Part shown: piece by piece, positions 15,631 through 24,928 of the stretch
Position numbering within the stretch: the first letter of the stretch is position 1
How the letters are laid out: each line of letters starts with the position of its first letter
IMG/VR virus record: IMGVR_UViG_3300042542_002003
Span: 1-26,238 of that record
From: a virus
Length of the DNA stretch: 26,238 nucleotides
Strand: one strand, 5' to 3'
Position numbers and translations under genes: made by a program
Notes under the pieces: generated by a model
The model's input: only the letters and a program-made list of their open reading frames with translations
Database searches by the model: none
What the model was told of the DNA's origin: nothing

Positions 15631-15894
15631 TTAGTCATCGGACCAAAGGCCCGCAACCCTTTTTCGCACCGACTCCGGCGCATCGTCGGCATGGACCCAC
15701 GCAGCTTCGCTGGCATAGAGGCCGTCAGCTTCCGGTAGTCGGCGGGCGCGCCAATCGATGTAGTTGTCATCTTCACCGCTCGGCCCTGCGCGGAAAGCCA
15801 GCAAGCGGGCACGATTGGCAGTGGCGGCAAACACGACTAGGTGCCATTCAGCCCCAAATGGGCGACATGAGTAGGCGCGGATGGTGCCGGACAT
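15631..15894 (-). CDS. Unknown 87-residue protein
   Basis: The ATG at 15894 overlaps the exonuclease stop as TGATG. A GTG three bases earlier (15897) would give GTGA overlap and one more residue. The sequence starts MSGTIRAYSCRPFGAEWHLV, then reads like a compact alpha/beta protein with charged surface and ends RKRVAGLWSDD. No cysteine cluster, membrane segment or known motif is visible. It is probably translated together with the nuclease. Function unknown. Confidence 0.6.
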   Translation of the reverse strand: MSGTIRAYSCRPFGAEWHLVVFAATANRARLLAFRAGPSGEDDNYIDWRARRLPEADGLYASEAAWVHADDAPESVRKRVAGLWSDD

Positions 15895-16655
15895 CACCGC
15901 TCCTCCGCGTCAGGTGGGTTCCACAGGATCGGCAACTTCCGGTCCGGGTCGTATTCACTAGCTCGCAGAATGCGAGCTAGGCGCACCTGGGTGATGGCGT
16001 CCCGTCGGGTGAGGCCCGCCTTCTCAAAGGCCTTCAGCACGGCCGCCCACATCGCCGCCTCGTCGGACTGCCCGGCCAGGATGACCTCCGCCTTCACCTT
16101 GCCGATACCAGGGCAGCCGGGGTAGTTGTCCGTGGTGTCGCCGATCAGCGCCTGCGAGAACACATTCAGATCGGCCTGGTGCTCGGAAACCTCCACGAAC
16201 TCGGTGCCTCGAAGGTGCCGGCCGGGGATCCCCAGCATGTCCTTGTCCTCCGAGACGATCACATCACCCGGGCGGTAGAGAATGCCCATCACATCGTCGG
16301 CCTCGACCTCGGCGAGCATGGCGATGTTCCAGCCGCGCAGCTCCCCGGCTGCGATGGCCCACTGGATCAGCTGGCTGTAACCGGCCGGCTTGCGGGATGC
16401 CTTGCGGTTCGCCTTGTAGGCGCTGAAGAGGCTGTAGCGGAAGCTGGCAGCAGTGCCAAGGCATAGGTGCAGCTGGTGGTCGGGCAGCGCATCACGGACG
16501 GATGCCAGGAAGTCTTGGAAACGGGCCTTCGCCTCGCCGTGCCGGCACACGTAGGTCCAATCATCTGGCGCCCACTCGATTTCGTATTCGGACACGGCGG
16601 TGCAGCGGCGGAGATAGAGCTCCGCATCCACCAGGGCCCTGGGTTGGTCGGTCAT
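15894..16655 (-). CDS. 5'-3' exonuclease / flap nuclease, T7 gp6-like
   Basis: A 253-residue 5' nuclease of the FEN family (T7 gp6 is 300). Metal-binding positions are visible in order: VDAEL with D10, FSAYKANRK (the YKxxR arch motif), EVEADDVMG, SEDKDML, and IGDTTDNYPGCPGIGKVKA, the last containing the GDxxDNxPGxPGIG helix-hairpin signature. In T7 the enzyme removes RNA primers and degrades host DNA. The start chosen is the ATG at 16655 overlapping the previous stop as ATGA. A longer in-frame reading to 16778 would overlap the upstream gene with unlikely sequence. It is the last replication-type gene before the head genes, as in T7. Confidence 0.93.
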   Translation of the reverse strand: MTDQPRALVDAELYLRRCTAVSEYEIEWAPDDWTYVCRHGEAKARFQDFLASVRDALPDHQLHLCLGTAASFRYSLFSAYKANRKASRKPAGYSQLIQWAIAAGELRGWNIAMLAEVEADDVMGILYRPGDVIVSEDKDMLGIPGRHLRGTEFVEVSEHQADLNVFSQALIGDTTDNYPGCPGIGKVKAEVILAGQSDEAAMWAAVLKAFEKAGLTRRDAITQVRLARILRASEYDPDRKLPILWNPPDAEER

Positions 16656-16858
16656 GGTTGTCGTTGCTCCAATCGGGATAAAGCCTCCAGTAGAGGCCGG
16701 GCCTTTTCTTTGTACTGTGGCCAAGAATTGAGGCACCTGCTGGTATAGATGCCGTACTCCTCTGGCACCCCTGGCCACCGGTAGCAGGGGTATTGGCAGC
16801 CAGCGCTTACGGGATCAATGCAGGAGCGGACAAGATCAAGATCATCCTGATAGCTCAC
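16652..16858 (-). CDS. Unknown small Cys-containing protein
   Basis: A 68-residue frame starting from GTG 16858, which overlaps the previous stop as GTGA, and ending as ATGA into the nuclease. It has four cysteines within the first 45 residues (SCIDPVSAGCQYPCYRWPG and later RCLNSW), possibly a metal site, then a basic/acidic helix. I do not recognise a family. The perfect coupling at both ends and sensible residue composition support a real gene despite the small size and GTG start. Confidence 0.62.
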   Translation of the reverse strand: MSYQDDLDLVRSCIDPVSAGCQYPCYRWPGVPEEYGIYTSRCLNSWPQYKEKARPLLEALSRLEQRQP

Positions 16859-17134: not shown

Positions 17135-17374
17135 TCAAAGAATGGTGGAAACAAAGCCGACGTGATCGGCGGCTGTGCGTTTGTGAAATGCTTCCATATC
17201 ACGGAAGAACATGTCGGCGAATCGTGGGTGAGCGTCTAGGAAATCCCACGTGGGCAAGCAAAGCTCGGTGTTCGGCGGCAGGTCGTGATTGAAGTCTTTG
17301 ACCGACCAATACCCAGCAAGAAGACCGCGCTGCAGGACAATTCGGCGTTTCAGCATTCTTTCTTCAGGGAGCAC
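17135..17374 (-). CDS. Unknown 79-residue protein
   Basis: The GTG at 17374 has a GAGG ribosome-binding sequence seven bases upstream and overlaps the previous gene by 11 bases. An ATG at 17356 would drop six residues. The sequence is basic at the start (MLKRRIVLQRGLLAGYW) and then has aromatic residues around PTWDFLDAHPRFADMFFRDM. It ends VGFVSTIL. No family recognised. The coding reading is supported by neighbour spacing and natural composition. Confidence 0.58.
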   Translation of the reverse strand: MLPEERMLKRRIVLQRGLLAGYWSVKDFNHDLPPNTELCLPTWDFLDAHPRFADMFFRDMEAFHKRTAADHVGFVSTIL

Positions 17375-17897
17375 GTGACCCCCTCTTCGCCTGCTTCCTC
17401 AGCTGCGCCTGTTCCCGCAGGTGCTGGCGCCACTGCTCCGCCGTCAGGCCTCGGCTGGCATCAGCAGCCGGCAGCAATCGCCGCCCATCGCAGGCGCCTA
17501 CCACCAGGTTGTAGGCGGCGGGGTTTTCGGCGCCATCCGGCGGGAGGGAAGCCGATCCCTTCGGCAGCATGGCCAGCTGCTGGTGCGTTGGCCGGAGCGA
17601 TCGAGGCAAGTCTTCTTTGAACCCCCACACTCGGATCGGCATGCCCCCGCTGCACCGGTACAGCGGCACCATGAGCTGCTGCCACGTCGGGAAGCGCAGG
17701 AACTCCCCGGTGGCCCCCTGGATCCAGCGCTCGCAGGCCCAGAGGAACTGCGGTGCGCTGACCTCCGGGAAGTCGCTGCTGAAGCTGATGAACTTCAGCT
17801 TGAAGTCCTCGGTGCTCCAGGCTGCTTCGGCCCGGATCCTGATGTGCCGCTCGATCATGCGGCAGCCACGGGTGAAGGCCTCCGGATCAAGCAGCAT
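17364..17897 (-). CDS. Unknown 177-residue protein, possibly a replication accessory protein
   Basis: Starts at ATG 17897, overlapping the zinc-ribbon gene by 11 bases. The upstream in-frame extension to 17942 is shadow sequence. Visible features are an N-terminal helix with RMIERHIRIRAEAAW, then FKLKFISFSSDFPEVSAPQF, CERWIQGATGEFLRFPTWQQ, and a basic C-terminal helix (EQWRQHLREQAQLRKQAKRG). The layout (helical N-terminus, W/F-rich centre, then an LP/FPTW-type segment) loosely recalls phage helicase-loader or replication proteins, but I cannot name the family. Its neighbours handle ssDNA, recombination and flap cutting, so a DNA replication role is a fair guess and no more. Confidence 0.68.
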   Translation of the reverse strand: MLLDPEAFTRGCRMIERHIRIRAEAAWSTEDFKLKFISFSSDFPEVSAPQFLWACERWIQGATGEFLRFPTWQQLMVPLYRCSGGMPIRVWGFKEDLPRSLRPTHQQLAMLPKGSASLPPDGAENPAAYNLVVGACDGRRLLPAADASRGLTAEQWRQHLREQAQLRKQAKRGSRAP

Positions 17898-18507
17898 CAG
17901 CCTTCTCCAGCATGTCCCGGATAGCCGCGGCGGCCGGGTCACCTGCGGGGGCGGCGGCCGGCGGGGCTGCTGAAGTGGTGCCGCGCAGGTACTCAGGCTT
18001 CAGTGCCTGCCAGCCGTGCTCGATGCCGGCTTCCACCAGGGCGCGGGCCGTGTCGTGCTGGCCCTGCTGGCACAGAAAACACACCCGACCGGCCGACAAA
18101 GTGAATGCCACTCGAGTCCATGCGGCTTGGGTCCGGTGCTTGCCCCAGCGGCTTTCGTTCCACCACGTCAGCATTTTGTCGAGAAGGTCCGGCGGCAGGC
18201 CATCGCGCTCGATGTCCGCGAGCCAGGGCTCGCCGCCAGTAATCGGATGCAACCGATCCGGGGCGGGGCTGGCGGCCCGCCTCCGTGGTGCGACCGGTGC
18301 CGGCGGGGCCACCGGCTTCGGATCGGGCACGGCGGCCAGGGCCACCGGCTGCCACGCGCCATCCTGGTAGACCTCGACCCGTTGGACGGTGGTGAACGAC
18401 TTGCCGCACCCCCGGCAAGCGTGGCGGCGGCGGACGGCGTTTTCGCTCGCGCTCTCGCGGGTTTCGAGCACCCGATTACCCCAGTGGCCGCAGTGAGGGC
18501 AATTCAT
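17887..18507 (-). CDS. NrdR-type zinc-ribbon protein with replication-like C-terminal region
   Basis: A 206-residue protein. The first 46 residues match the zinc ribbon of the NrdR repressor closely: CPHCG with C3 and C6, RETRES-type linker, RRRHACRGCGKSFTT with C31 and C34. NrdR normally continues with an ATP-cone. Here there is none. Instead a Pro/Ala/Arg linker (about 58-92) leads to WWNESRWGKHRTQAAW and EHGWQALKPEYL. Those two patterns resemble the C-terminal parts of DnaD-like phage replication proteins (W..W...GK..A..AW and a late GW..L.P.Y). A second CxxC pair sits at about 143-146. The start overlaps the coiled-coil gene stop as TGATG. A DNA-binding role in replication is inferred. 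Repression of ribonucleotide reductase genes is the alternative. Confidence 0.8.
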   Translation of the reverse strand: MNCPHCGHWGNRVLETRESASENAVRRRHACRGCGKSFTTVQRVEVYQDGAWQPVALAAVPDPKPVAPPAPVAPRRRAASPAPDRLHPITGGEPWLADIERDGLPPDLLDKMLTWWNESRWGKHRTQAAWTRVAFTLSAGRVCFLCQQGQHDTARALVEAGIEHGWQALKPEYLRGTTSAAPPAAAPAGDPAAAAIRDMLEKADAA

Positions 18508-20466: not shown

Positions 20467-20668
20467 TGCCGCCACCCTTGCGACGCTTGATTGCCTCGAC
20501 CTCCTTCCGCACTTGATCGCGGCAGAAGTCTCCGAGAAAAGCGCTTTGCTCGGCCATTTGTTCTTCGGGCCCAATCGCTTGGGCCGCGCAACCGATGTCC
20601 ACGTTTTCGTAGTTGCCTAGGTTGACCTTGGCGGAGAATGACCGCGTGATCTGGATTTCTTGGCTCAC
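20459..20668 (-). CDS. Unknown 69-residue protein downstream of ssDNA-binding gene
   Basis: The start is GTG 20668, overlapping the ssDNA-binding protein stop as GTGA. The sequence MSQEIQITRSFSAKVNLGNY followed by ENVDIG resembles a small, common phage protein type found beside ssDNA-binding and recombination genes (pattern SFSAKVNLGNYEN), though no function is known to me. The second half is helical and basic (RDQVRKEVEAIKRRK). Compact and complete. Confidence 0.68.
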   Translation of the reverse strand: MSQEIQITRSFSAKVNLGNYENVDIGCAAQAIGPEEQMAEQSAFLGDFCRDQVRKEVEAIKRRKGGGNA

Positions 20669-21312
20669 CAGGGCACCTCTTCAGTACTGGCGAAACCCTC
20701 GGCAGCATCGAACCCAAACGGATCCGCGGCAGCAGGGGCCAGGGTGGTGGCGTCCGTGCCCTCCTCGGGCGCACCGAAGACACCGGGATCCACGGCTCGC
20801 ATGGAGTAGGGGACGTGATTGAGAACGCGCACGCCAAGTAGCTGCAGGGTTACACCTTTGCCGCCTTTTTCGTTGTTCCAAAGGTAAGTGGAATAAGCAA
20901 TCTTGCAAACCGAGCCGTTGCCGATCGCGACATCAACAGGCCACGGGTTCCCCTTGGCGTCTTGCACCATAGGGGGCGGTAACTCGGTCCCACGGCTGGT
21001 TCTCGTATCGCGAGCGAATGTAATCCGATAAAGCCCGGTAGGAGTCTCGACGCCGTTGTCGCCAACGGTCGTTTCACGCTTCCACGGCTTGCCATTCGGC
21101 CCGTACTTTGCATTGCCGCCAAAGTGGGCCATGAAGGCGTGATGAAGAGATCCAATGAAGGCCTTTGCCCCGGAATCTTGATCGGGATCAGCTTGAAGCA
21201 GCACGATTCCGTACTGCATCTTTTCGCCTGAATCGTTCTTGATCAGCTTGGGCTTGAGGACGTTTGCAAACAGGACCTCGCCGGCCGGAGTGACCAGCTC
21301 TTCGGATGCCAT
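20665..21312 (-). CDS. ssDNA-binding protein, T7 gp2.5-like
   Basis: A 215-residue protein (T7 gp2.5 is 232). The ATG at 21312 is chosen because MASEELVTPAGEVLFANVLK begins the OB-fold like its relatives. The upstream extension to 21354 would run through the palindrome after the polymerase gene. Features are YGIVLLQADPDQD, then KAFIGSLHHAFMAHFGG, DTRTSRGTELPPPMV and GVTLQLLGVRVLNH in the OB-fold core. The last 35 residues form the typical acidic, flexible tail ending ASTEEVPW with an aromatic C-terminus, which in this family recruits replication partners. Such tails normally bind DNA polymerase and primase-helicase, yet neither gene is in this window. Confidence 0.88.
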   Translation of the reverse strand: MASEELVTPAGEVLFANVLKPKLIKNDSGEKMQYGIVLLQADPDQDSGAKAFIGSLHHAFMAHFGGNAKYGPNGKPWKRETTVGDNGVETPTGLYRITFARDTRTSRGTELPPPMVQDAKGNPWPVDVAIGNGSVCKIAYSTYLWNNEKGGKGVTLQLLGVRVLNHVPYSMRAVDPGVFGAPEEGTDATTLAPAAADPFGFDAAEGFASTEEVPW

Positions 21313-21351
21313 GCTCTGCAGGGGTGTAGGGCTCCCGGATACTAGGGCATC

Positions 21352-21371
21352 CACTAGCGCTGGCGCTAGTG
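21352..21371 (-). repeat. 20-base perfect inverted repeat between RNA polymerase and ssDNA-binding genes
   Basis: CACTAGCGC and its exact complement are separated by two bases. The repeat begins one base after the polymerase stop codon and ends 39 bases before the ssDNA-binding start. A nine-pair hairpin with a two-base turn would form in RNA, but no T-tract follows. It may be an operator, a weak attenuator or an RNase site. Confidence 0.6.
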
Positions 21372-21372
21372 C

Positions 21373-23793
21373 CTAGCTGAACAGATACGGGTTACTGCCG
21401 ATCTCGCCGATCTCCAGCGCTCCCCGTGGTGGCGGCAGCGGCAGCGCCTTAAGCCCTGCGTTGCAACGGATCTCCTCGGCGATGGCCTCCAGCCAGTCGG
21501 TGGCATAGAGGGCCCGAAACTCGTCGAGCAAGGTCTTCTGCAACCAGCTGGCGTTGGCCGGATCAGTGGCGAAACAGTCGTGGTTGGTCAGCAACGGCAC
21601 ACCTTGTTCTCCAGCCCTGTAGGCCACGGCATGCACCAGTGCCGCGTCGAAGGAATGCACCAGGTTGGCGGTGATGCTGCCGTTGGTCCGCCGGGCGCTC
21701 AGCTCGCCTTCCGGCGGGTCCTCCTCGAAGGTGACGGCTGCGAGCTTGCCGAGGAGGTGCGTGCGGATCACGGATTTACTGGGTGTCGGCCGGCCTACCT
21801 GCATGGGCCACCCCATCGGCGTGGTCCACCTGATCTGTTGCTGGTGGCGGCCGACCACCTCGCGGCCCACATCGCAGAGCCAGCGGCGGAGCTGCATCAG
21901 GGATGCGGTTTCGGTGCCGAGCACCACCCGCAGCCTGGATTCCAGGTAGCTGCTGGGCCGGTAGATCCGGCCTGCCCAGTCATCCACGGGCCCCAGCCGC
22001 TGCTGCAGTTGATCCCGGATGCCATCGGCCACGGTGCGGGAGGTGCTGCCGAACGGTGTGTGCATCACGGCGGCCTTCACCCAGCTGCGATCGATGCCAA
22101 GTTCCAGCCAGCCGGCGGCCAGCTGGTGGGTCCGCGCATCCCCGCAATGCAGATCGATCTCCAGCTGCTGCTGCAGTCGCTTCACCACGACGGAATAGAG
22201 GTCGTTCGGCCCGGTGCCACAGACGTTGCAGAGCTCGGCCATCGCTCGATCCCGGAGCAGGGTCGCGATAATCCCGGCGCCGGAGCAGGTTTGATCCAGG
22301 CGGATGGGAACCTTGTGTCTGCTGCTCCTGCCGATCGGCTCCGCCCAAGCTTTGGCCATTTGCAGAAACTGCCAAGGCTGCTTGGCTTGCCGCCATTGGT
22401 CGGCGTTGCCGATTGGATCGTCCGCGATTGCTTTCAGCCGCCAAATTTCCTGTAAGCCCCACTCCAGCCGAGCACTCCATTCGTGGCGCGTCAGACCCCA
22501 GTGCCCCGCGGCAGCCTTCAAGATCCAGTCGAACCCGTCGACTCCAACGCTTTGGCTTGAGGCAAACCGCAGCAGTGCCTTCTGGTGGTCGGGGCCCTGG
22601 TGCGTGAGACCCCGGTTTGCGGTGAAGGCCCGGCCACGGAAGTCGAGGAAATGGGCCTGATAGATCGGCCTGCCAGCCAGCGCCTCACCTGTCTGGAGTG
22701 CCCGCTCGATCGCCAGCCGCTTGGAGCTGTTGTCCCTCAGATCCTGGTGGTGCCGGGCCTGGTCGCGCCGCCAGGCATCCTGCACATCCGGCGGTTCGCT
22801 GGTGGGGAACGGCCCCGCATCGGGGACAGGATCCCGCTCGACCGGAAACAGGCCGGGGATGTTCCGGTCCCACGCCTCCCGCTGCACCCGCAGCATCCAC
22901 GGGTCTACCTCCAGCTGCTGCCGCTGCAGGACGTTGACGGCTGCCAGCTGCGGACCGATCCGGCCCGACAGGTAGCTGATGGCCATGTGGCCTCGCGCCG
23001 CCCGGATCTGCACCACCGGGGAGGTGTTGGCCAGGTGGCCACCGCCTACCAGCCCCTCCCAGGGGATCGGCTCGATCACCATCGGCCCCCGGTTCGGCCG
23101 GAGACTGCGGGGAGGGTGGCGCCGGATGAAGTCCAGGGCCTTGGCTGATGGCAGCACCCGCCACTGGGCCCGCCGGTTGGGCTGGTCGCTCTTGTCGATA
23201 ATCACCAGCCCGGTTTCGCGTCGCACCACCTCGAGCAGCAGCAGGCCCACCGTCGCCCGCTCCAGCCGCGTCCAGATCGGGTTGGATCCCTCGATCGGCC
23301 GGGCGGCGATCGCCAGCACCGCTTTGCGCTTCTCCGCTGTGGTCCTCTCAAGCAGTCGATCCAGGCTGGCCGGGGATCGCTTGCCAATCTCGCCGGCCTT
23401 CACCTCGGCATCCACGGCCACACCGATGGACAAGGCGAGCCCCTGGAAGCTGACGGCGTGGGAGAGGCGGTCAAGGATCGTGACCAGGGCCACCGCCGCG
23501 ATGCGTTGCGGGCTGCCGAGGGCGGCCACCAGCGGCAGAGCCCCATAACCAGGGCCACCCAGCTGGGGGTTCTCGCCCCAGCGATAAAGAATCGCCTCGA
23601 TCTCTCGGCTGACGGGATCAGCGAACTGCTGAAACAGGGCGGTTCCGTATTCGGTGCAGCTTTCCCGCCGATACCGGCGAAGCGCCTGCCGCATCACCAG
23701 CGCTCGTTGCTCGGCGTTGGTGGCTTCCTGCCATTCCAGCCGCTGCTGGAGGTCCCTGTCCACCGTGGTGGATTTGCTGCTTGGCGGATTCAT
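21373..23793 (-). CDS. T7-type single-subunit RNA polymerase with natural Tyr-to-Phe at the 639 position
   Basis: An 806-residue polymerase (T7 is 883). Conserved parts in order: an N-terminal helical domain; AHFLDFRGRAFT (T7 DWRGR); motif A IRLDQTCSGAG with catalytic D500 (T7 D537); motif B DRSWVKAAVMHTPFGS with K573 (T7 K631); LVHSFDAALVH; and motif C TNHDCFATDPA with D739 (T7 D812). The tyrosine of motif B that discriminates ribo- from deoxyribonucleotides in T7 (Y639) is F581 here, by correct spacing of eight residues from the lysine. The C-terminus NPYLFS ends with an aromatic pair near the end, comparable to the T7 FAFA end. The enzyme should transcribe the leftward middle and late genes. 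A host promoter would be needed for its own expression. The ATG at 23793 lacks a strong ribosome site. Confidence 0.95.
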   Translation of the reverse strand: MNPPSSKSTTVDRDLQQRLEWQEATNAEQRALVMRQALRRYRRESCTEYGTALFQQFADPVSREIEAILYRWGENPQLGGPGYGALPLVAALGSPQRIAAVALVTILDRLSHAVSFQGLALSIGVAVDAEVKAGEIGKRSPASLDRLLERTTAEKRKAVLAIAARPIEGSNPIWTRLERATVGLLLLEVVRRETGLVIIDKSDQPNRRAQWRVLPSAKALDFIRRHPPRSLRPNRGPMVIEPIPWEGLVGGGHLANTSPVVQIRAARGHMAISYLSGRIGPQLAAVNVLQRQQLEVDPWMLRVQREAWDRNIPGLFPVERDPVPDAGPFPTSEPPDVQDAWRRDQARHHQDLRDNSSKRLAIERALQTGEALAGRPIYQAHFLDFRGRAFTANRGLTHQGPDHQKALLRFASSQSVGVDGFDWILKAAAGHWGLTRHEWSARLEWGLQEIWRLKAIADDPIGNADQWRQAKQPWQFLQMAKAWAEPIGRSSRHKVPIRLDQTCSGAGIIATLLRDRAMAELCNVCGTGPNDLYSVVVKRLQQQLEIDLHCGDARTHQLAAGWLELGIDRSWVKAAVMHTPFGSTSRTVADGIRDQLQQRLGPVDDWAGRIYRPSSYLESRLRVVLGTETASLMQLRRWLCDVGREVVGRHQQQIRWTTPMGWPMQVGRPTPSKSVIRTHLLGKLAAVTFEEDPPEGELSARRTNGSITANLVHSFDAALVHAVAYRAGEQGVPLLTNHDCFATDPANASWLQKTLLDEFRALYATDWLEAIAEEIRCNAGLKALPLPPPRGALEIGEIGSNPYLFS

Positions 23794-24059: not shown

Positions 24060-24668
24060 TTACGGGGTCTGCAGGACCACCACGGCGGACGGCATGGCGC
24101 CACCTCGGCCCATCGGCTGAACGATGGACAGCAGGCTTTGGATCACGGCCGCTCGCCTCCTGATCAGGGCCAGGCACTCGGCCGCTGTGGCCAGGGATCC
24201 CCGCGTTGGCCATCCAGTCATGGCCGCCAGCCGTTCGGACTCCCTGCTGAGATCGGCGCAGAGAACGCTGATCACCTCCGACACGTCTTCGCCCGGCAGC
24301 ACCATGAAGGGCCGCGACGGGCTGGGCTTGGCTTTGGCCTCCAGCTCTTCGAGGAACCAGCCATCCATCCACACCGCGAACTGCGGTGAGATCCAGCGGG
24401 CCAGGTCCACGGCGAGACGTGGATGGATCCAGGTGCCACGGAAACGGTTGGGGCCGGTGGTGGTGGTGAGCACCAGCCGATCGGCGGGGATGCCGAGGGA
24501 GTCGGCCAGGGCCTGGAGGTAAGCGGCGGAGGTGTCGAGCCGTTCGTAGTTGTGCCACCGTTTGCCATTGGCCTGGCACATGGTCGTGGCATCGGCGTAA
24601 CCGTCGCTGTCGCGGCGGCTGATGGGTGCGTCATTCCACGTGCGGACGCTGAGGCCTGAGGCGTTCAT
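24060..24668 (-). CDS. KilA-N domain protein
   Basis: A 202-residue protein starting at ATG 24668. An in-frame extension to 24875 would cross the hairpins and promoter-like region and is rejected. Residues about 20-110 match the KilA-N domain: GYADATTMCQANGKRWHNYE, then the LTTTTGPNRFRGTWIHPRLA segment leading into WISPQFAVWMDGWFLEEL. KilA-N proteins are DNA-binding phage proteins, some toxic and some regulatory. The remaining 90 residues are helical (EVISVLCADLSRESERLAAM) and end in a Met/Gly/Pro-rich tail. It stands alone between two hairpins and has its own candidate promoter with repeated half-sites, which fits a regulator controlling itself. Confidence 0.92.
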   Translation of the reverse strand: MNASGLSVRTWNDAPISRRDSDGYADATTMCQANGKRWHNYERLDTSAAYLQALADSLGIPADRLVLTTTTGPNRFRGTWIHPRLAVDLARWISPQFAVWMDGWFLEELEAKAKPSPSRPFMVLPGEDVSEVISVLCADLSRESERLAAMTGWPTRGSLATAAECLALIRRRAAVIQSLLSIVQPMGRGGAMPSAVVVLQTP

Positions 24669-24714
24669 GGTTGTTTCTGCTGTAGGGCGCCGGGCATCGC
24701 TGCCTGACGTCTGC

Positions 24715-24770
24715 AGCATAAGCACACCAGCCCGCAACGCGTCAAGCACTGGGGGTCTGCGCAGATCTGC
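24715..24770 (-). promoter_or_regulatory. Candidate sigma70-like promoter with TCTGC/GCAGA half-sites for the KilA-N gene
   Basis: Reading leftward, TTGACG (24745-24740) and TATGCT (24720-24715) are separated by 19 bases, longer than ideal. Just upstream, at 24756-24770, plus-strand TCTGC, GCAGA, TCTGC follow each other, forming two overlapping 10-base palindromes. Further TCTGC copies lie at 24710-24714 and 24676-24680. The arrangement suggests an operator, perhaps bound by the KilA-N protein. Inference only. Confidence 0.4.
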
Positions 24771-24789
24771 ACGGACCCAAAACAGCAGC

Positions 24790-24823
24790 AAGGGGGTCAG
24801 CTCAGATGTGAGCCGACCCCCTT
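24790..24823 (-). terminator. Strong hairpin ending the integrase transcript
   Basis: On the minus strand AAGGGGGTCGGCTCA pairs with TGAGCTGACCCCCTT around loop CATC: 15 pairs, one of them G-U. A TTTT tract follows after seven bases. It lies about 105 bases after the last gene of the integrase group and before the KilA-N promoter region, so it probably separates the two transcripts. Confidence 0.7.
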
Positions 24824-24831
24824 GCCTGGAA

Positions 24832-24858
24832 TGAAACCGGGCCTCCGATACGGTTTCA
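24832..24858 (-). repeat. Second hairpin upstream of the terminator
   Basis: TGAAACCG and CGGTTTCA form a perfect eight-pair stem with an 11-base loop. It is only eight bases from the 24790-24823 hairpin, so the two could stack as a tandem terminator. No T-tract of its own. Confidence 0.5.
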
Positions 24859-24928
24859 GGCCGCCGCCTACGCAACAGCGGCCACCGCGTCCAGCCTTAC
24901 GGGTAGGACCGACCCGGCGGGGAGCAGG

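Follow-up and report, generated by a model that had tools for sequence, protein, structure and literature searches.

Natural phenylalanine at the sugar-selecting position of a T7-type phage RNA polymerase

The IMG/VR virus record IMGVR_UViG_3300042542_002003, a linear fragment of 26,238 bases (the whole of which is called the window here), encodes a T7-type single-subunit RNA polymerase in which the sugar-selecting tyrosine of the T7 enzyme, Y639, is replaced by phenylalanine, F581. The replacement lies at the T7 639 position, is conserved in the window's clade, stands in a gene under purifying selection, has recurred in the family and is found both with and without a phage DNA polymerase. We propose that the enzyme is a working transcriptase of the T7 family with a natural, recurrent Y639F change, which would be less sugar-selective in vitro and would make RNA in the cell; we give this reading a probability of roughly 0.7. 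We infer that the enzyme is active, that its selectivity is relaxed and that the change is harmless in the cell.

Identity of F581

The polymerase gene (Table 1) matches Pfam RNA_pol (PF00940, E 2.7e-46) and RPOL_N (E 8.5e-08), and the phrog_414 RNA polymerase profile covers residues 16-806 of its product (E 1.4e-127). An AlphaFold model, from an alignment of 39 sequences, has a predicted local distance difference test (pLDDT) score of 88.8. In structure comparison this confident model comes closest to T7 elongation complexes (1s77, Z 39.7, root-mean-square deviation 4.0 over 763 residues).

The motif DRSWVKAAVMHTPFGS, residues 568-583, includes both K573 and F581. A phmmer search against solved structures aligns R569, K573, F581 and G582 with R627, K631, Y639 and G640 of T7 RNA polymerase (1aro) without a gap, and MAFFT with T7, SP6, Syn5 and P-SSP7 gives the same pairing of F581 with Y639. 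An earlier note on this DNA had placed the eighth residue after the catalytic lysine at the Y639 position, read it as a natural phenylalanine and proposed an alignment with these four phages; both alignments agree with its assignment. It had also allowed that a different tyrosine might occupy the 639 position, but the neighbours of F581 are P580 and G582. In the predicted structure, R569 and K573 are carried by a helix (residues 569-581) that ends at F581.

The window enzyme possesses the catalytic aspartate pair (D500, D739), the O-helix arginine and lysine (R569, K573), the histidine of T7 position 784 (H713) and the glycine of T7 position 542 (G505), and has F581 instead of the sugar-selecting tyrosine. 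Since the profiles, the fold and the catalytic residues all agree, and since engineered phenylalanine mutants of family members are active, F581 does not imply loss of membership of the T7-like family.

Conservation was assessed in 154 representatives at 92% identity, drawn from 303 frames, some of them fetched more than once, each 600 aa or longer. The equivalents of T7 D537, R627 and K631 are invariant; for H784 there are 149 with His and five with a gap, and for G542 there are 152 with Gly and two with Ala. All 18 representatives with Phe at 639 retain the equivalents of D537, R627, K631, H784 and D812, and 16 of them retain G542. Both cases of Ala at T7 542, another sugar-contact site, belong to a second Phe lineage (see below), where Ala was found in 5 of 20 near-complete aligned sequences (L110, L114, L119, L121, L141).

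The same phenylalanine is found in nine other IMG/VR contigs (L006-L012, L015, L016) and in L101, a contig binned with a Cyanobium genome (a metagenome-assembled genome, MAG), at 90% identity. All 10 F rows of the clade tree (window, L032, L023, L031, L024, L101, L025-L028) use TTC or TTT as the codon, and dN/dS is 0.14-0.26 in the seven computed pairs of F rows; the RNA polymerase gene is under purifying selection. The phenylalanine common to independent contigs, the codons and the dN/dS values together indicate that F581 is genuine and that the gene is under selection. A sequencing error, a misalignment or a decayed gene is next to impossible: no point in its favour was found, the nine further contigs and the MAG contig with the same Phe refute it, and the frame is open, under purifying selection and aligned without gaps in agreement with the fold.

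Recurrence of phenylalanine at position 639

Homology searches with the window protein and a 13-row alignment as queries, one scan giving the best 80 of 187 matches, yielded 85 rows including eight named phages; one row duplicates the window protein, leaving 84 distinct RNA polymerases. Ten of these, every one of them in the window clade, have Phe; the other 74 have Tyr. Among named phages the column was read in 11 (T7, SP6, Syn5, P-SSP7, S-SRP02, S37-C6, S31-C1, S38-C3, P-SCSP1h, S28-C10 and S30-C28), and each of the 11 has Tyr. The earlier note had suggested such a survey of the 639 column.

Exact scans of IMG/VR extended this picture. The Phe motif with a CGN codon for R627 was found in 47 stretches, comprising 9 from the window clade, 32 from the second lineage, with a motif that is mostly DRSFTKKIVMCKPFGMNGY, and 6 without an RNA polymerase match. 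Scanning with AGR codons gave 45 stretches. Of these, 41 are further second-lineage members that share approximately 51-59% identity with L120, 3 do not match an RNA polymerase, and one is L309, whose separate RNA polymerase has Phe at T7 639 and reads TRDMIKPLVMTRPFGSRAY (TRPFG). A variant with Thr at 636 returned seven stretches, none with an RNA polymerase. The window-type motif with Tyr was found in at least 120 stretches, with an RNA polymerase frame at 118 of the 120 loci listed.

Altogether 73 contigs carry the second lineage, which is without close named isolates; some contigs may be fragments of one and the same phage. Its loci (L108-L154 and L294-L338, e.g. L120:1690-4029, L129, L303, L310) have Phe in every member read. 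A search with the L120 protein identified 52 loci, and Phe stands in 44 of 44 motifs of the new loci, one of the six search peptides including the Phe. The Tyr version of the second-lineage motif had no match in the scan, and the nearest Tyr relatives found are approximately 31-38% identical. All 2,637 phage records matching the second-lineage RNA polymerase lie below 60% identity, with a maximum of 31% among the 30 listed.

In the 154 representatives 136 have Tyr and 18 have Phe, a ratio that is not a prevalence because the motif scans had enriched the set for Phe. Phe requires four changes on a quick tree, at least three of them forced by starred branches, and a careful tree of 35 rows gives the same counts. 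Placing all F rows in one clade was rejected (approximately unbiased (AU) test, p-AU 0.0002), as was a single clade of the second lineage and L309 (p 0.012). Two separate origins of Phe, in the window clade and in the second lineage, are firm. L309 is a probable third, less certain because of its long branch. With at least two and probably three origins, and with retention within lineages, Phe would appear to be tolerated or mildly favoured.

Two close relatives of the window enzyme, L013 (83% identity) and L014 (82%), carry Tyr; these are the L029 and L030 contigs of the clade tree. On starred branches of the clade tree, a careful tree with the motif columns excluded, they nest within the F rows beside L026 and L028. 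Forcing the F rows together was not rejected (p-AU 0.108). Residues 578, 581 and 583 all differ between the F rows and these two. The simplest reading, with direction taken from the outgroups (all Tyr), is that Phe was gained once, at the base of the window clade, and reverted to Tyr once, possibly through local replacement, given that the three residues change as a patch. The reversal is likely but falls short of proof, as a single Phe clade is compatible with the AU test. Local identity between L026 and L029 drops to 0.72 at the amino acid level near residues 561-595, with a mean of 0.88, but a few other windows along the pair are equally low or lower. The dip around the motif therefore does not establish that L029/L030 took their Tyr from a local DNA exchange.

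Predicted sugar selection and competing explanations

In the reading proposed here, the window gene encodes a DNA-dependent RNA polymerase with which the phage would transcribe genes of its own. In T7, the tyrosine at the end of the O-helix reads the 2'-OH of the incoming nucleotide. The phenylalanine in its place would retain the aromatic ring and lose the hydroxyl used in sugar selection, so the enzyme would discriminate less than a Tyr enzyme against deoxynucleoside triphosphates (dNTPs) and 2'-modified nucleoside triphosphates (NTPs). RNA would still be made in the cell, as the remaining sugar-contacting residues are intact and ribonucleoside triphosphates are more abundant than dNTPs in the host.

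By analogy with engineered enzymes, use of dNTPs or 2'-modified NTPs by the window enzyme in vitro is a reasonable expectation. The Tyr-to-Phe change in T7 greatly reduces discrimination (PMC4538805), in line with what the earlier note had stated for Y639F, and the same swap relaxes ribose or 2' selectivity to differing degrees in the T7, Syn5, KP34, VSW-3 and SP6 RNA polymerases. KP34 Y603F incorporates nucleoside monophosphates (NMPs) much as the wild type does and accepts almost all dNTPs (PMC6834552), and SP6 Y631F is also less 2'-selective (PMC13286181). No report of a natural Phe at 639 was found in the open-licence literature, in titles and the starts of abstracts among the matches listed, which is weak evidence of absence.

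The earlier note had also reported that the window lacks a DNA polymerase and a primase gene, and profile searches of this linear fragment concur, with no match to DNA_pol_A, DnaB_C or Toprim_3. Five relatives of 42-47 kb, with Phe and with Tyr, likewise gave no match to the three families, the completeness of these records being uncertain. DNA_pol_A had no match in 11 IMG/VR relatives of the window or in S-SRP02, S37-C6, S31-C1 and S38-C3, and was detected in the controls Syn5 and T7. DnaB_C and Toprim_3 gave no match in S-SRP02 and S38-C3 and are present in S37-C6, S31-C1 and Syn5, with Toprim matches below the family cut-off. In the Cyanobium MAG a DNA_pol_A match lies on contig 59 and the phage RNA polymerase on contig 17.

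The further suggestion, that the missing genes give the phenylalanine its significance, is not supported. The Tyr-bearing L013, L014, S-SRP02 and S38-C3 are without both as well. In the second Phe lineage, 13 of 16 records match DNA_pol_A (9 of 12, the rest being pieces of 10.5-15 kb, and then 4 of 4). Alongside the RNA polymerase, the sole genome examined from it encodes a T7-type primase-helicase, a DNA polymerase and an exonuclease and gives a weak T7 single-stranded DNA-binding protein (SSB) match. Since the same absences occur in F and Y relatives, loss of replication genes is not tied to Phe. A tie between Phe and an absent DNA polymerase is rejected on both counts, and the phenylalanine is not a by-product of losing the phage DNA polymerase.

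There are two other explanations, and we regard both as unlikely. One is that H578 (three residues before F581), S583 or Y378 restores a polar contact and with it Tyr-like ribose selection. H578, F581 and S583 change jointly in all 10 F rows relative to L029/L030 and five outgroup rows, Y378 replaces a Trp kept by the same seven Tyr rows, and the T7 H784 equivalent is retained. Residue 578 is His in 10 of 10 F rows, Phe in L029 and Val in L030; His at T7 636 occurs in 5 of 154 representatives, and all five window-clade F rows among them have it. Other Phe lineages have different partner residues, however (Cys or Thr at T7 636 and Met at 641 in the second lineage, Thr and Ser in L309), which argues against a shared compensator. 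Tyr at T7 415 also occurs in 56 of 136 Tyr enzymes, and linked changes within one short motif may be a single local replacement. No shared compensating residue is evident across the Phe lineages: besides 639, the filter retained only T7 columns 167, 221, 645 and 795, of which L309 has just 221 in common with the others, and none of the four is known to be a sugar contact. The other, about equally doubtful, is that the hydroxyl is dispensable in these hosts and that drift or local gene conversion swaps Tyr and Phe without functional consequence. This would account for L029/L030, where Tyr occurs within the Phe clade and the motif has changed as a patch, and for the identity dip between L026 and L029, although a few other windows dip as low or lower. 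Against it, Tyr is kept in 136 of 154 representatives even though the sample is enriched for Phe, and the second lineage, sampled largely through Phe motifs and down to approximately 51% identity, yielded no Tyr member.

That relaxed sugar choice is put to use in the cell, with dNMPs being incorporated or mixed RNA/DNA strands made, for instance as long-lived primers that replace those of the missing primase and serve the host replisome, is highly improbable. Y-to-F mutants are able to take dNTPs, the five 42-47 kb relatives are without DNA_pol_A, DnaB_C and Toprim_3 matches, and the L309 record pairs Phe with no DNA_pol_A match. Yet the same genes are missing from Tyr relatives, a DNA polymerase is encoded in the second Phe lineage itself (with a primase-helicase in the genome examined), and P-SCSP1h, an MPP-C cyanopodovirus with no DNA polymerase, has Tyr. 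A working transcriptase with relaxed selectivity in vitro is the reading we retain, and the evidence that weighs against it can be summarised as (i) Syn5 Y564F (PMC4538805) and VSW-3 Y578F (PMC9624206) give less native RNA, so that Phe need not be cost-free; (ii) wild-type Syn5, with Tyr, already discriminates weakly against 2'-F (PMC4538805), so the residue at 639 is not the sole determinant; (iii) the co-changed H578, S583 and Y378 could restore selectivity; (iv) the 36.7-kb L309 record, which may be incomplete, has Phe and no DNA_pol_A match, the only result outside the window clade to favour a link between Phe and a missing DNA polymerase; (v) two Tyr relatives are nested among Phe enzymes, hinting that Phe is not always retained and that the 639 site may switch back.

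Table 1 Positions of the RNA polymerase gene, its key codons and two replication genes in the window
Feature	Position	Strand	Basis
T7-type single-subunit RNA polymerase, 806 aa	21373..23793	-	Open reading frame, Pfam, phrog_414, structural match
F581 codon TTC, T7 Y639 equivalent	22051..22053	-	Alignments; final residue of predicted helix 569-581
H578 codon, T7 T636 position, candidate co-change	22060..22062	-	His only in window Phe clade among representatives
K573 codon, T7 K631 equivalent	22075..22077	-	K in 154/154 representatives
R569 codon, T7 R627 equivalent	22087..22089	-	R in 154/154 representatives
G505 codon, T7 G542 equivalent	22279..22281	-	Alignment, representative survey
D500 codon, metal-binding T7 D537 equivalent	22294..22296	-	D in 154/154 representatives
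H713 codon, T7 H784 (2'-OH contact) equivalent, retained	21655..21657	-	H in 149/154 representatives, 5 gapped
D739 codon, metal-binding T7 D812 equivalent	21577..21579	-	Alignment, representative survey
gp2.5-like single-stranded DNA-binding protein, adjoins RNA polymerase	20665..21354	-	phrog_112 E 1.5e-16
5'-3' exonuclease (gp6-like)	15894..16778	-	Pfam 5_3_exonuc_N E 2e-10; phrog_107 E 9.5e-45; no DNA_pol_A match

The window also encodes a Holliday-junction resolvase. The place of the primase-helicase of S37-C6 and S31-C1 corresponds to 17364-17942 and 17887-18507 of the window (both on the minus strand), where the window clade, S-SRP02 and S38-C3 have an NrdR-like zinc ribbon protein and a protein of unknown family; perhaps, and this is a guess, the two recruit the host replisome. 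Searches of Pfam, PHROGs and NCBIfam with the 192-aa protein (17364-17942) gave no match, and its model was poor (pLDDT 54); the protein was not used as evidence. Proteins of approximately 245 aa annotated as 'DNA polymerase I' in S-SRP02 (L002:22389-23129) and S37-C6 (L003:20750-21481) match the 5'-3' exonuclease of the window. The S-SRP02 paper placed 'DNA polymerase' in a concatenated tree (PMC8790148). S-SRP02 carries in addition a gene annotated as the DNA polymerase III beta subunit (sliding clamp, L002:10903-11607); tblastn searches (E 1e-4) of the window, four relatives, S37-C6, S31-C1 and S38-C3 gave no copy of it.

Meaning and comparison with known systems

The tyrosine at T7 639 has been described as conserved (PMC7862312). 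It is therefore a surprise to find it replaced by Phe more than once, and the replacement carried by a whole diverse lineage. Wild phages carry the same single swap that laboratories put into T7 RNA polymerase for altered sugars, and its natural recurrence suggests that the tyrosine hydroxyl is dispensable in nature. The Phe relatives are ready-made enzymes in which evolution kept Phe, and may be better starting points for the production of 2'-modified RNA. With natural relatives that have Tyr (L013, L014) and Phe (L010) and are 82-88% identical to the window enzyme, what sugar selection costs and what it gains can be tested directly. It is quite improbable that several wild lineages put deoxy- or other 2'-variant nucleotides into transcripts at rates relevant in the infected cell; if they did, the result would be partly DNA-like, hydrolysis-resistant RNA or primers, a natural counterpart of the laboratory trick.

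The closest annotated relatives are the Synechococcus phage S-SRP02 and the MedDCM group G9 phages S37-C6, S31-C1 and S38-C3, at 34-41% identity. A starred branch of 54 rows holds S-SRP02 and the window clade, the window enzyme being 41% identical to that of S-SRP02. These phages have integrase, RNA polymerase, SSB and exonuclease genes in common with the window. The S-SRP02 genes with tblastn matches in the window are those for integrase, KilA-N, RNA polymerase, SSB, the NrdR-like protein, p029, exonuclease, portal, capsid and tail tube B; S-SRP02 RusA had no tblastn match there. The KilA-N domain protein is encoded at 24060-24875 (minus strand), upstream of the RNA polymerase gene, and its S-SRP02 counterpart is 52% identical. 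All four RNA polymerases have Tyr, unlike the window enzyme, and S37-C6 and S31-C1 retain a T7-type primase-helicase that the window clade is without.

Cyanopodoviruses without a DNA polymerase are already known as MPP-C, the P-SCSP1 group, and these keep the primase-helicase (PMC9860041). The window resembles them in lacking the DNA polymerase gene, and P-SCSP1 RNA polymerases are approximately 27% identical to that of the window. The window and its five relatives depart from MPP-C in that DnaB_C and Toprim_3 are absent along with DNA_pol_A, and the one P-SCSP1-group enzyme read, that of P-SCSP1h, has Tyr.

The nearest functional parallels are KP34 Y603F, Syn5 Y564F, VSW-3 Y578F and SP6 Y631F, which carry the same swap at the same position and show relaxed 2' selectivity in vitro. 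These are man-made point mutants of Tyr enzymes, whereas the phenylalanine of the window enzyme is natural, and the same likeness and difference apply to the T7 Y639F laboratory mutant. The window enzyme shares with T7 RNA polymerase itself the fold, the motifs and the equivalents of R627, K631, D537, D812, H784 and G542. It differs in overall sequence (approximately 21% identity), in having His at T7 636, where T7 has Thr, and in having Arg at the position of T7 F644.

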